11,410 bases of DNA from a candidate division NPL-UPA2 bacterium (GTDB lineage Bacteria > NPL-UPA2 > JAGMAN01), in the NCBI GenBank assembly GCA_021129695.1, contig JAJOKU010000080.1:1-11410 (forward strand). Reading direction: 5' to 3'. Positions 2,526 to 10,488 of the stretch are shown here, one piece after another (within the stretch, counting starts at the first letter, position 1; every line of letters begins with the position of its first letter). Under the pieces are notes generated by a model that searched no databases, was not told the DNA's origin, and saw only the letters and a list, made by a program, of their open reading frames with translations. A program made the position numbers and the translations under genes.

Positions 2526-3707
2526 GTGGCTTTGAAAATACTGATTGTGGCTGGGGGGACGGGAGGACATCTATTCCCTGGTCTGGTCATAGCTGAGAGG
2601 CTACTGCAAAGGGAAGTAGGATGTAAGATTACCTTTATCGGAAGGAGGCGAGGTTTGGAAGCTGAGACGGTGCCCAGGGAGGGATTTCCATATCTTGGCA
2701 TATGGGGCGAGGGATGGTCGGGGAAATCTCCGGTAAGGCTTCTTTCATCACTCCTGAAGACTGTCCTGGGTTTCTTCCAATCGCTCTACATCCTTTTAAA
2801 AGTTCGTCCAAATGTCGTCGTGGGAATGGGGGGATATTTAGCGGGGCCATTCGTCTTGGCGGCCTCTCTCCTTGCCCCGTTTAGAAATCTATTTCTAACG
2901 GGGCGAGGCTTTCACACCTTAATCCATGAGCAAAACCTGGTGCCCGGGATTACCAACCGCATCTTGAGCAGGTTTGTTGATGAAGTCAATGTAAGTTTTG
3001 CTGAGTCAAAGCCGTTTTTCCCAGAAGGGAAAACAGTCATTACCGGTAATCCGGTTCGTGGCGAAATCGCCCAGAGTGGAAAAAGGAAGAGCGAGAGCGC
3101 AAGGACGATATTAGTCATGGGAGGAAGTAGAGGGGCACACCGAATTAATGTGTCTATGTTGGAGGCAGTCAATTACTTGACACGTACACGTAAGAGTGCT
3201 GCACACACAGCCGAAGGCACAGCCGAGGCAGTGCCGGAGGCAAGCGAAGAGAAGATGGATTCCTATCGAATAATTCACTTGAGCGGCAAGGAAGATTATC
3301 AACTTATGGTAGAGGCTTATAAAGAGGCCGGGGTAGAAGCGCTGGTCCATCCTTTCCTTCATCGGATGGAAGAGGCATACGGCCAGGCTGACCTGGTCAT
3401 CTGCCGGGCGGGAGCCACTACCTTAGCTGAAGTTACTGCCTGTGGACTGCCAGCTATTCTCATCCCTTATCCATGGGCCACCCATGGTCACCAGGAGCAA
3501 AATGCCCGCTGGCTGGAAGGCAGTGGGGGAGCGGCGGTGATAAAGGACGGGGAGTTAACGGGAGAGCGCTTAGCCAGGACCATTTTAAACTTAATGGCCG
3601 AGGAAGGGAAATTAGCCCGGATGGCTGAGAATAGCCGTCGGTTGGGTAAGCCGACAGCAGGTGAGAAAGTGGTGGAAAGAATACTGCATCTAGCAAGAAA
3701 ATGTTAG
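2526..3707 (+). CDS. murG: UDP-GlcNAc--MurNAc-pentapeptide GlcNAc transferase MurG
   Basis: MurG is a peripheral GT-B glycosyltransferase at the inner face of the membrane. It adds GlcNAc to lipid I, making lipid II. Visible motifs are the N-terminal GGTGGH loop (10-15), IHEQNLVPGITNR, GNPVR, the second glycine-rich loop VMGGSRGAHRIN, HLSGKEDY, and the donor-binding stretch RAGATTLAEVTACGLPAILIPYP followed by HQEQNA. At 393 residues it is longer than the usual 355-370, and two loops account for this. One is APFRNLFLTGRGFHT (117-131), written by a palindrome, where relatives have a short turn before the IHEQN motif. The other is about 25 residues at 219-244, written by a repeat, just before RIIHLSGKEDY. 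Both keep the frame. The start may be TTG 2532 rather than GTG 2526. The last seven bases overlap murC. Confidence 0.96.
   Translation: MALKILIVAGGTGGHLFPGLVIAERLLQREVGCKITFIGRRRGLEAETVPREGFPYLGIWGEGWSGKSPVRLLSSLLKTVLGFFQSLYILLKVRPNVVVGMGGYLAGPFVLAASLLAPFRNLFLTGRGFHTLIHEQNLVPGITNRILSRFVDEVNVSFAESKPFFPEGKTVITGNPVRGEIAQSGKRKSESARTILVMGGSRGAHRINVSMLEAVNYLTRTRKSAAHTAEGTAEAVPEASEEKMDSYRIIHLSGKEDYQLMVEAYKEAGVEALVHPFLHRMEEAYGQADLVICRAGATTLAEVTACGLPAILIPYPWATHGHQEQNARWLEGSGGAAVIKDGELTGERLARTILNLMAEEGKLARMAENSRRLGKPTAGEKVVERILHLARKC
2870..2908. repeat. Palindromic element inserted in-frame in murG
   Basis: The left arm CCTTGCCCCGTTTAGAAAT (2870-2888) and right arm ATTTCTAACGGGGCGAGG (2891-2908) are near-perfect reverse complements, with one mismatch and one extra T, separated by two bases. 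The 39-base unit fills a loop of MurG that is short in relatives and adds about eleven residues (around 117-130) without a stop. This is what a palindromic element fixed inside a gene looks like. Whether other copies exist in the genome cannot be seen here. Confidence 0.65.
3186..3248. repeat. Short interspersed repeat, murG copy, split by 39 bases
   Basis: ACACGTAAGAGTGCTGCA at 3186-3203 is identical to 4378-4395 in murC. The CAAGCGAA that directly completes the murC copy appears here at 3241-3248, after 39 extra bases (3202-3240) rich in GCCGAGGC-type repeats. The repeat is read as TRKSAA. ACACGT is also doubled just before (3180-3191). It lies in a variable loop before HLSGKEDY. Confidence 0.65.
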
Positions 3708-5104
3708 CAGGAATTAAAAATATTCATTTTATTGGAATTGGGGGAGCGGGAATGAGCGCTCTGGCCCAGGTTTTACTGGAGATGGGCTATGGGGTGAGTG
3801 GTTCTGATATAAAGATGAGCTTGACTACCAAACGCCTTGAGGAGCGAGGAGTAGTGGTTTACCTCGGCCATGGGGGAAAGAACTTAGCTCAAGCCGATTT
3901 AGTGGTATTCTCCTCAGCCATTCCCTCCACCAATCCCGAACTGAAAGCCGCCCGACTGCGGGGTCTTTCCGTCATCTCCCGGGGAGAGATGCTGGCTGAG
4001 CTAATGAAAGACAGGAAAGGAATCGCCGTGGCCGGAACACATGGGAAGACAACTACCACCTCTATGGTCGCCTCTATCCTCTCCGAAGCCGCCCTCGACC
4101 CCACCATCGTCATTGGAGGGGAGGTAAATGACATTGGAGGAAATGCTAAACTCGGGCGGGGGTGCTACTTAGTAGCTGAGGCTGATGAGAGCGATGGCTC
4201 TTTCCTGAAGCTATCTCCTACCTTAGCCGTGGTCACCAACATTGAAGCCGACCACCTGGACTATTATGATAACATGCCTGCTATTATTGAGGCTTTTAGA
4301 AAGTTTATCGAAAAGGTCTCCAATGGCGGATGTCTGGTACTATCTGACCATCCAAATGTCAGGAAGATGAAAGCGAAACACGTAAGAGTGCTGCAAGCGA
4401 ACGAAAAGCGAAAAGCGAAAAACATTAACATATTGACCTACGGGATTGACGGCGAGTGTGACCTTATAGCCCAGGCAGTAAAGCTCCGGGGACTGGGGTC
4501 AGAATATGAGGTTTCTCTCCGGGGGGGAAGATTAGGCAGTATCAGGCTCGGGGTGCCAGGCAGACATAATATCTACAATTCGCTTGCGGCCATTGGAGTT
4601 GCCGCAGAGGTAGGGGTTAGCTTTGAGAAGATAAGCTCTGCCCTAACTAAGTTCCAAGGAGTCCAGCGGCGCTTTGAGATAAAGGGCGAGGTTAGGGACA
4701 TTGTAATAGTAGATGACTATGCTCATCATCCCACTGAGATAAGAGCTACTCTAAAGGCTGCCCGGCAGTGGAGAGGGAAGAGAATAGTTGGAATATTCCA
4801 GCCGCATCGCTATACCAGGACAAAATTTTTAAGAGAGGATTTCTCCTCAGCCTTCAAGGGGGCAGACTTCCTGGTTATAACTGATATCTATTCGGCTGGT
4901 GAGGAACCTCTGCCTGGTGTCAGCGGGCGGGATATATACGAGGCGGTTCGAGCCATTGGCCAGGAAAACGTTGAGTTCATTCCAGACAAATCAAAGATTG
5001 CTGAGCGGGTAATGACTATCCTTAAGCCCCGGGATACGGTGATTACTATGGGAGCGGGAGATATTGATACCGTAGCCGAGGAATTGGTGGAGAGACTTAA
5101 GTGA
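3701..5104 (+). CDS. murC: UDP-N-acetylmuramate--L-alanine ligase MurC
   Basis: MurC is the cytoplasmic ATP-dependent ligase that adds the first stem residue, L-Ala, to UDP-MurNAc. Its 467 residues are typical. The N-terminal nucleotide-sugar domain opens with IHFIGIGGAGMSALA (8-22). The central ATPase has the P-loop GTHGKTTTTS (112-121), EADESDGSF and TNIEADHLDYY. The C-terminal domain has RRFEIKG, then DDYAHHPTEI (Tyr340 to Pro344 within it), FQPHRYTRT, and ends ITMGAGDIDTVAEELV. HYAHHPT-type motifs separate MurC from MurD, MurE and MurF. A stretch near 226-241 (KHVRVLQANEKRKAKN) is encoded by a repeat and lengthens the loop before LTYGI. It starts inside the last codons of murG (ATGTTAG) with a weak ribosome site, implying coupling. 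Confidence 0.97.
   Translation: MLAGIKNIHFIGIGGAGMSALAQVLLEMGYGVSGSDIKMSLTTKRLEERGVVVYLGHGGKNLAQADLVVFSSAIPSTNPELKAARLRGLSVISRGEMLAELMKDRKGIAVAGTHGKTTTTSMVASILSEAALDPTIVIGGEVNDIGGNAKLGRGCYLVAEADESDGSFLKLSPTLAVVTNIEADHLDYYDNMPAIIEAFRKFIEKVSNGGCLVLSDHPNVRKMKAKHVRVLQANEKRKAKNINILTYGIDGECDLIAQAVKLRGLGSEYEVSLRGGRLGSIRLGVPGRHNIYNSLAAIGVAAEVGVSFEKISSALTKFQGVQRRFEIKGEVRDIVIVDDYAHHPTEIRATLKAARQWRGKRIVGIFQPHRYTRTKFLREDFSSAFKGADFLVITDIYSAGEEPLPGVSGRDIYEAVRAIGQENVEFIPDKSKIAERVMTILKPRDTVITMGAGDIDTVAEELVERLK
4371..4422. repeat. Short interspersed repeat, murC copy, with AGCGAAA tandem tail
   Basis: ACACGTAAGAGTGCTGCA at 4378-4395 matches murG exactly and continues as AGCGAA, matching murB (GAGTGCTGCAAGCGAA, 4386-4401 and 5400-5415). 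It is flanked by AAGCGAAA at 4371-4378 and a 7-base tandem AAAAGCG at 4404-4417. Here the repeat is read as HVRVLQA, a different frame from murG. It sits in a loop of the central domain that is short in most MurC proteins. Confidence 0.7.
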
Positions 5105-5105
5105 G

Positions 5106-6029
5106 ATGAGCTTGGCTAAAGAGATTAGCGAGATTGTGAAAGGCAGGATAAAATTCAATGAGCCGTTGAGTGAGCATACTTCATTGCGAATCGGCGGCCC
5201 AGCCGATTATTGGGTGGAGCCCAAAGATTTAGAGGATTTGAGAGCGGTCCTCCAGTTTGCTTCAACTAAGCGCCTACCCTGGAAGGTCTTAGGAGAAGGG
5301 ACGAATATCCTGGCCCGGGATAGAGGATTTCCAGGGCTGATTATAAGTTTGAGAGGGGATTCTTTCCAGAAGCTTGAATTTAATGAAGACACGTCTTACG
5401 AGTGCTGCAAGCGAAGGGTAGTGGCGGGAGCGGCAGTTCTCTTATCCAAGCTAATGTCAGAGGCAGCCGAGCGCGGCTTAGGAGGACTGGAATTTGCGGT
5501 TGGTATTCCCGGGACAGTGGGAGGGGCATTGGTCATGAATGCCGGAGCTCAATCGGCCTCGGTGGGAGATGTCACCCATTCGGTAAAGGTTCTCAATACA
5601 AGCAATGGAGTTTCTCTTCTAAAGAAGGATGCCCTTCGGTTTGGGTATCGCAGAAGCAACCTGGGGAAAGAGGAAGTGGTTTTAGAGGTGGAGATGAAGC
5701 TAAAGAAGAAAGATAAGAATGAGATTGATAATTTGATAAAGGATTATTTAAGTAAAAGAAGAGAAGCTCAGCCTCTCGACCAGCCCAGCGCCGGGTGTAT
5801 CTTTAAGAATCCATCTGACGTTTCAGCGGGAGAATTGATTGATAAAGCTAACTTAAAGGGCAGGAGGATAGGAGATGCCCAGATCTCCACCAAACATGCC
5901 AACTTCATCATCAACCGGGGGGAAGCTAAAGCAGAAGAAGTAATTAGTCTCGTGGAGACAGTCAGAGAAGAAGTCCTCAGGAAGATGGGGATAAGGCTGG
6001 AACCAGAGATTGAGATTATTGGAGAGTAG
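5106..6029 (+). CDS. murB: UDP-N-acetylenolpyruvoylglucosamine reductase MurB
   Basis: MurB is a cytoplasmic FAD enzyme that reduces UDP-GlcNAc-enolpyruvate with NADPH to UDP-MurNAc, the substrate of MurC just upstream. At 307 residues it matches the shorter type II enzymes. FAD-domain motifs are HTSLRIGGPADYWVEP, LGEGTNILARDRGFPGLII, and GGLEFAVGIPGTVGGALVMNAGA. The catalytic-domain arginine lies in FGYRRSNL, and the substrate-binding glutamate is in the tail EPEIEIIGE. In PSAGCIFKNP the residue at 231 is Cys where well-studied enzymes have the proton-donating Ser. The stretch TSYECCK near 96-102 is written by the interspersed repeat. One base separates it from murC; there is no strong ribosome site. 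Confidence 0.96.
   Translation: MSLAKEISEIVKGRIKFNEPLSEHTSLRIGGPADYWVEPKDLEDLRAVLQFASTKRLPWKVLGEGTNILARDRGFPGLIISLRGDSFQKLEFNEDTSYECCKRRVVAGAAVLLSKLMSEAAERGLGGLEFAVGIPGTVGGALVMNAGAQSASVGDVTHSVKVLNTSNGVSLLKKDALRFGYRRSNLGKEEVVLEVEMKLKKKDKNEIDNLIKDYLSKRREAQPLDQPSAGCIFKNPSDVSAGELIDKANLKGRRIGDAQISTKHANFIINRGEAKAEEVISLVETVREEVLRKMGIRLEPEIEIIGE
5389..5415. repeat. Short interspersed repeat, murB copy (variant)
   Basis: ACACGT at 5389-5394, then CTTAC, then GAGTGCTGCAAGCGAA at 5400-5415. Compared with murC it has three extra bases and one change in the middle, and the 16-base right part is identical. It is read as TSYECCK, the third of the three possible frames. It lies between QKLEFNED and RVVAGAAV, a variable loop of the FAD domain. 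Confidence 0.6.
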
Positions 6030-10250: not shown

Positions 10251-10263
10251 ATGTTTGCTCAGT

Positions 10264-10424
10264 CTCGGTTTACGCAGGATCGCTTGCCACACCCCGGCGA
10301 GGTGTGGCTACGCTCAGTTTTCTGCCCTCGCTCCCCCCGCCGCTTTGCTTCGCAAAGCGAAGCAAACCGAAGCAGCGGGGGACCATGCCCGCTCGGGCAT
10401 AAAAACGTCCTGCTTAAAACCGAG
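10264..10424. repeat. Structured module after ftsZ: terminal inverted repeats enclosing three hairpins
   Basis: The 248 bases between ftsZ and the preferred pgeF start hold no convincing gene. Outer arms CTCGGTTTACGCAGGA (10264-10279) and TCCTGCTTAAAACCGAG (10408-10424) are reverse complements with one gap and one mismatch. Between them are three hairpins. The first is GCCACACC/GGTGTGGC (10286-10293, 10301-10308). The second is a long nested one with outer CCCCCGC/GCGGGGG (10334-10340, 10375-10381) and a perfect 10-base inner stem TTTGCTTCGC/GCGAAGCAAA (10344-10353, 10357-10366). The third is ATGCCC/GGGCAT (10385-10390, 10395-10400). No T-tract follows the strong hairpins on either strand, so this is not a standard terminator. 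It may stabilise the ftsZ 3' end or reduce read-through into pgeF. No transposase is seen. Confidence 0.7.
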
Positions 10425-10488
10425 CCTTCGCACCTGATGTGTTAGGTGATGAAATAGGGATGGGTAAAATGGTTAATGCTTTGGAAGT

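Follow-up and report, generated by a model that had tools for sequence, protein, structure and literature searches.

Elhai and co-workers, in 2008, reportedly described small dispersed repeats (SDRs) in filamentous cyanobacteria. SDRs are 21-27 nt long, belong to one clade, include self-nested copies and have been mobile recently; nested copies occur in some families and a shared predicted secondary structure in some, and the repeats are often embedded in heptamer arrays. RNA intermediates have been proposed for them, and to our knowledge the enzyme that moves them is not known and the mechanism is open. Passages of two papers (PMC3116915, PMC2884548) mention these cyanobacterial SDRs (Elhai et al. 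2008). Rickettsia palindromic elements (RPEs), as presented in passages of three papers (PMC10969869, PMC2229807, PMC3733652), are inserts of 105-146 bp (one review gives about 150 bp) that have long stem-loops and lie in frame within unrelated, often conserved genes, where they are translated and tolerated. REP and REPIN sequences and the GTAG- and CGTC-tagged REPs, in the part of PMC3733652 that treats them, measure about 20-40 bp and are dispersed, sometimes within coding sequence.

The repeat analysed here shares with SDRs, at the level of general features, its unit size (21 and 24 bp against 21-27 nt), self-nesting (form B inside form B in murB of genome G001), confinement to one clade and recent mobility without a known enzyme. 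It differs from them in coming from another phylum, in residing mostly in frame within core genes, and in the absence of a shared fold, since no significant single-strand fold was found in the bare units (z-scores of 0.44 for form A and 0.16 for form B). Like RPEs, it occupies in-frame positions in ORFs that encode conserved proteins; unlike those palindromes, which span about 100-150 bp and have a long stem, it is a non-palindromic unit of 21 or 24 bp read in several frames. The size range, the dispersal and the presence in coding sequence recall REPs and REPINs. However, the present repeat is mostly coding rather than intergenic, has no tagged palindrome with a stem, and no linked transposase was found, a Y1 domain being present in one of three incomplete genomes with no element ends nearby. 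Of the hallmarks of MITEs, terminal inverted repeats are absent and no target-site duplication is visible, and whereas DNA uptake sequences evolve in resident sequence, this repeat arrives by insertion. By analogy, the element would work like cyanobacterial SDRs in size and nesting and like RPEs in its in-frame residence, without the folds that mark them. A literature search by topic, as opposed to sequence, and excluding subscription papers, found no paper on the element among those listed, and the words repeat, transposase, insertion, palindrom and mobile are absent from the paper on the NPL-UPA2 candidate phylum (PMC6305446).

Results

A short repeat in three consecutive mur genes

The window, that is, the whole stretch of 11,410 nucleotides analysed, is contig C12 of genome G000 (909,787 bp in 167 contigs, 69.6% complete) and carries cell-wall and division genes in a row. 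Pfam named ftsW, murG, murC, murB and a laccase-domain gene at 10439; from their translations, we take other genes to be mraY, ddl, ftsQ, ftsA and ftsZ. Rfam returned no family at gathering score in the window. The gap between ftsW and murG contains a palindromic repeat, CATTGCGAGGCGTAGCCAAAGCAATG (2438-2463); a related repeat, CATTGCGAGG, forms an in-frame insert in the murB gene of a phylum relative, G007 (L105:2376, protein CHCEGQSPEAIS). A GC-rich palindromic stretch beginning CTTTGCTTCGCAAAGCGAAGC, in the gap 3′ of ftsZ (10256-10440), resembles another repeat. The mur features are as follows.

2526-3707, + strand: murG, host gene, 393 aa; Pfam Glyco_transf_28 and Glyco_tran_28_C
3180-3185, + strand: extra ACACGT before the murG copy, not in G002; slippage or a nested-insertion remnant
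3187-3246, + strand: element A with filler in murG, reads TRKSAAHTAEGTAEAVPEASE; head 3187-3201, 39-bp filler 3202-3240, tail CAAGCG 3241-3246
3701-5104, + strand: murC, host gene, 467 aa; Pfam Mur_ligase, Mur_ligase_M and Mur_ligase_C
4379-4399, + strand: element A, bare 21 bp, in murC, between A and A; reads HVRVLQA
5106-6029, + strand: murB, host gene, 307 aa; Pfam FAD_binding_4 and MurB_C
5390-5413, + strand: element B, 24 bp, in murB; reads DTSYECCKR

An earlier note on this DNA had reported an identical 18-mer at 3186-3203 (murG) and 4378-4395 (murC) and a variant of it in murB, spaced by about 1.0-1.2 kb and with no additional copy in the window. The exact match, which arose in none of 200 shuffles, was borne out, and the spacing and the count proved correct. 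The kinship of the murB copy also stood, an independent search having recovered the three-copy family including murB 5397-5415; this copy is not a point-mutated variant, however, but a separate 24-bp form, B, recurring elsewhere in the genome. The protein readings do differ (TRKSAA in murG, HVRVLQA in murC, DTSYECCKR in murB). A genome-wide count of the 18-mer allowing up to three mismatches found 24 places (16 exact, both strands), against none for the reversed-pattern control. Together with the shuffles, this led us to reject chance as the origin of the repeat.

Alignment of filled sites with orthologues lacking the unit defined the lengths of form A (CACGTAAGAGTGCTGCAAGCG, 21 bp, found in murC and, with a 39-bp filler, in murG) and form B (CACGTCTTACGAGTGCTGCAAGCG, 24 bp, found in murB). 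The ends, CACG and AGCG, are not inverted repeats. Sixty-five copies were collected (A, 53; B, 12), which is less than a full census of the three genomes that carry the repeat. These three, the only ones among 98 genomes searched (the window's own, relatives and more distant ones), all belong to one genus: G000 itself and its sisters G001 and G002. They are fragmentary (140 to 170 contigs) and 69.6, 81 and 90% complete, G002 being the 90% one, and two of them are titled metagenome-assembled. With at most one mismatch, the 18-mer occurs at 22 places in G000, 26 in G001 and 6 in G002. The nearest proteins with a named source beyond the genus include some labelled Nitrospirae bacterium (those of G003, of the same order as G000) and some labelled candidate division NPL-UPA2. 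A scan of GTDB species genomes placed 23 of 25 matching stretches in two assemblies, taken to be G001 and G002: JAUWHM, labelled Nitrospirota bacterium (19 stretches), and JAGMAN, bacterium RS_15_20 (4 stretches). The remaining two, single matches in unrelated genomes of Porphyromonadaceae and Nanopelagicaceae, have no AAGCG end and were discarded. A viral origin was likewise rejected: the 16-mer core matches seven viral-contig stretches, which were taken as chance because none has the AAGCG end after the core. One 12.5-kb contig of G000 (C9, locus L162) holds about eight B sites, some doubled or tripled, in or near ispH, rph, rdgB and a ROK kinase gene, and gives 13 matches to the B tail.

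Filled and empty orthologous sites

Sixteen sites could be compared on both flanks in at least two of the three genomes, with flank identities of about 79-94%. Nine of them are polymorphic, another genome lacking precisely the inserted unit with a residual gap of exactly 0, and no target-site duplication is visible at these empty sites. The polymorphic sites are murC, murB, the inner murB copy, coaE site 1, rdgB, a ROK-family kinase gene, moeA (72-bp filled form), the gene at L174:481, and L174:1655, the weakest of the nine, with diverged flanks and a G before the gap in the empty genome. Seven sites (murG, fusA, ychF, coaE site 2, a response regulator, L174:1055 and a second ROK site) are filled in all genomes compared. 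Five comparison rows were set aside, three for negative gaps, one for a spurious 767-bp gap, and one an intergenic G001 site (L090) at which a different 45-bp sequence stands in G000. Presence differs both ways: at coaE site 1, G001 has the unit and G000 lacks it, whereas at murC G000 has it and G001 lacks it. These filled and empty sites, along with the nested copies, support the earlier suggestion of a short element, mobile or copied, that coding sequence tolerates.

At the murC site, G000 reads GCGAAA-(element A)-AACGAA and G001 reads GCGAAAAACGAA; exactly the unit is missing from G001 and G002, and the site is also empty in G003. In proteins drawn from a 5.8-billion-protein collection (P numbers), HVRVLQA is present in MurC P0003, a partial protein from a 1.7-kb metagenomic contig, and missing from P0002 (that of G002), which is 97.4% identical to it over aligned residues, as well as from P0004 and the nine next proteins, P0005-P0013. 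The murC element lies immediately 5′ of a degenerate AACGAAA/AGCGAAA heptamer run (4400-4425), and the B copy at L174:1655 is found within similar heptamers. MurB occurs in three states: empty (P0125, and P0126, which is that of G002), single (the window) and nested double (P0122, P0123, which is that of G001, and P0124). The site is without B in G002 and G003; in G001, a second B is nested in the first at CACGTCTTA^CGAGTG. Since the empty P0125 has the double P0122 as its closest protein (89.2% identity), murB states change repeatedly. The murC and murB states are thus homoplastic, P0003 being filled beside an empty G002 and P0125 empty beside a double P0122, so that gain of the unit, its precise loss and recurrent insertion at a single site are inseparable. 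The murG site is filled in G000, G002 and P0241, each with a different filler, and the insert is missing from all 12 next closest proteins (P0242-P0253).

At all three sites, then, the next closest proteins are without the added residues. To that extent the earlier placing of each copy in a variable loop is roughly right; it fails for the murC model, where the insert sits at a helix end and not in a loop. In AlphaFold2 models of MurC and MurG (mean pLDDT 89.6 and 89.4), the MurC insert (residues 227-233) lies in the low-confidence terminal part of a predicted helix (218-236), ahead of strand 243-249, and the MurG insert begins where helix 205-228 ends and continues into low-confidence coil that precedes strand 247-253.

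Target sequence

Removal of 11 of the 53 A copies (seven orthologous duplicates and four in one shared filler context) left 42 non-redundant sites. The base at −1 is A at 40 of these and G at the other two; where the right flank could be read (41 sites), A occupies +1 in 31 and +2 in 36, and G occupies +4 in 34. Ten pre-insertion sequences, nine from orthologues and one inferred (fabD filler), with L174:1655 excluded, have A at −1 in every case, G at +4 in eight, A at +1 in seven and A at +2 in five. On these counts, the preceding A and the G at +4 are the best supported features of the target, usually A^AARG.

Fillers and nested copies

Nineteen A copies hold 12-84 extra bp between GCTGC and AAGCG, every one of the 19 lengths being a multiple of three; at least three of these copies are in apparently non-coding places, and some are orthologous to each other. 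For three more A copies no length could be obtained: one contains N, another has an altered tail, and in the third no tail was found. The ychF site is bare in G000 and G002 and has a 51-bp filler in G001. One filler motif, also found in several other contexts, occurs 26 times in G000, 20 times in G001 and not at all in G002. The mirrored sequence was left out as a control for a 12-mer census, since a reversed string retains its repeats. Comparison of orthologues places the entry of B into B at TTA^CGAG and that of GC-rich filler into A at TGCA^AGCG; judging from the sequence, A appears to have entered filler at TGTGA^AACGG. Repeated B halves are present at loci other than murB. GC-rich filler was also seen within the context TACGGTGAAACA (or TACGGTAAAACA) ... 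GTAC, at L150, L154, L143 and L147; this second short context suggests that there may be more families of mutually nesting micro-elements.

Host genes, orientation and reading frame

Hosts in the three genomes include rpoD, fusA, aspS (twice), rplO, rplY, tmk, coaE (two sites), ispH, rph, rdgB, mfd, ychF, tig, murG, murC and murB. The fabD copy sits inside filler, and in tmk and in response regulators copies lie directly after or near the start codon. Once seven orthologous duplicates, five filler-context copies and eight intergenic or unnamed places had been dropped, 33 A sites in named or conserved genes remained, 30 sense and 3 antisense (mlaF, thrC, gspJ); with nine B sites added, the figures become 38 sense and 4 antisense. 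The gene and frame table behind these counts was curated by hand: one A gene has no family match but a G001 orthologue, another rests on a weak family match (E 1e-4), and the B part includes one degenerate ROK copy and omits two B places, L162:5825 (not scanned) and L162:7446, whose ORFs belong to no named family. Target-site frequency, taken on both strands of ten window ORFs, was rejected as the source of the sense bias, as it predicts merely 1.28 to 1 against 38 to 4 observed; the bias therefore reflects peptide selection or mechanism.

The 30 sense A sites read TRKSAAS (20), HVRVLQA (6) and (D/N)TKECCKR or similar (4). Both forms are stop-free in five of six frames, and their lengths are multiples of three. 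In the TAA-prone frame, all four copies carry the AAA variant; of the 26 copies in the remaining sense frames, 3 do (Fisher P=0.0013). Since AAA replaces TAA throughout that frame, the copies look translated, and the substitution pattern strongly suggests that they are read as 7- or 8-residue additions. The use of three sense frames, together with the antisense copies, agrees with the earlier view that the DNA, not a peptide, is what is conserved.

Discussion

The repeat is very probably a genus-specific, gene-free, selfish and translated mobile micro-element with two forms, A (21 bp) and B (24 bp). As filled and empty sites show, it inserts 3′ of an A, with a preference for A^AARG and no visible target-site duplication, and the elements themselves serve as targets (B into B, filler into A and, it appears, A into filler). 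Survival inside genes is possible because the length is a multiple of three and five of the six frames are free of stops; selection would presumably purge harmful copies.

The short, exact repeats, dispersed on both strands and largely genic, could also bring to mind a DNA uptake or recombination signal (DUS/USS- or Chi-like) built up by selection on resident sequence; an uptake or recombination sequence was one of two alternatives in the earlier note. That alternative did not survive the orthologue comparison: the copies are inserted units of 21 or 24 bp and not mutated resident sequence, some are nested, there are merely tens per genome, and among the genomes searched they are confined to one genus, which makes such a signal very improbable. 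It is scarcely credible that the repeat is a conserved peptide or domain motif spread via gene conversion. TRKSAAS is indeed the commonest reading, at 20 of 30 sense A sites, but three sense frames are used, antisense copies exist, and at each of the three window sites the residues are missing from the next closest proteins; we rejected a shared peptide on the grounds of the several frames and these proteins.

Within the reading as a mobile micro-element, the absence of terminal inverted repeats and of a duplication suggests that movement would rely on a trans-acting enzyme, whose substrate would most likely be a single-stranded or RNA form. Y1 (HUH)-type enzymes typically make no duplication, recognize a strand-specific target and insert 3′ of a fixed base. 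The element fits this pattern, and single-strand transposition on minimal ends, 3′ of a fixed base, by such a transposase acting in trans is a possible, if doubtful, route. A 234-aa ORF at L111 in G001 has the sole Y1 transposase domain among the three genomes and presumably resembles REP-associated Y1 transposases. Against its involvement, no element ends were found in its 3-kb locus, G000 and the 90%-complete G002 gave no Y1 domain, and the element has no stable hairpin. The sense bias (38 to 4, where target frequency predicts 1.28 to 1) would be explained if the element were joined into a transcript, copied back and recombined, a course in line with the RNA intermediates proposed for the cyanobacterial repeats. 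We consider this RNA-mediated route unlikely, as no reverse transcriptase domain was found in the three genomes (69.6, 81 and 90% complete) and selection against antisense peptides such as CSTLTC and LAALLRV would yield an equal bias. Both enzyme searches are limited in weight by the incompleteness of the genomes.

A more far-reaching interpretation, which we advance only tentatively, is that of a mobile unit of 7-8 codons that selection has shaped for being read in genes (a multiple of three, stop-poor, with an A^AARG target), that is moved unlike any described transposase, and that decorates a noticeable part of the core proteome, including the sigma factor RpoD, EF-G and ribosomal proteins. 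DNA of 21-24 letters, apparently inserted in dozens of genes in an uncultured bacterium, many of them normally essential, would be among the smallest mobile elements known. This genus, from a distant lineage, offers sites both filled and empty, nested copies, a rule for the target and statistics on orientation and frame, and the mechanism of mobility at about 20 bp is thereby made testable. The element would also represent a direct route for selfish DNA to place short peptides into essential proteins.
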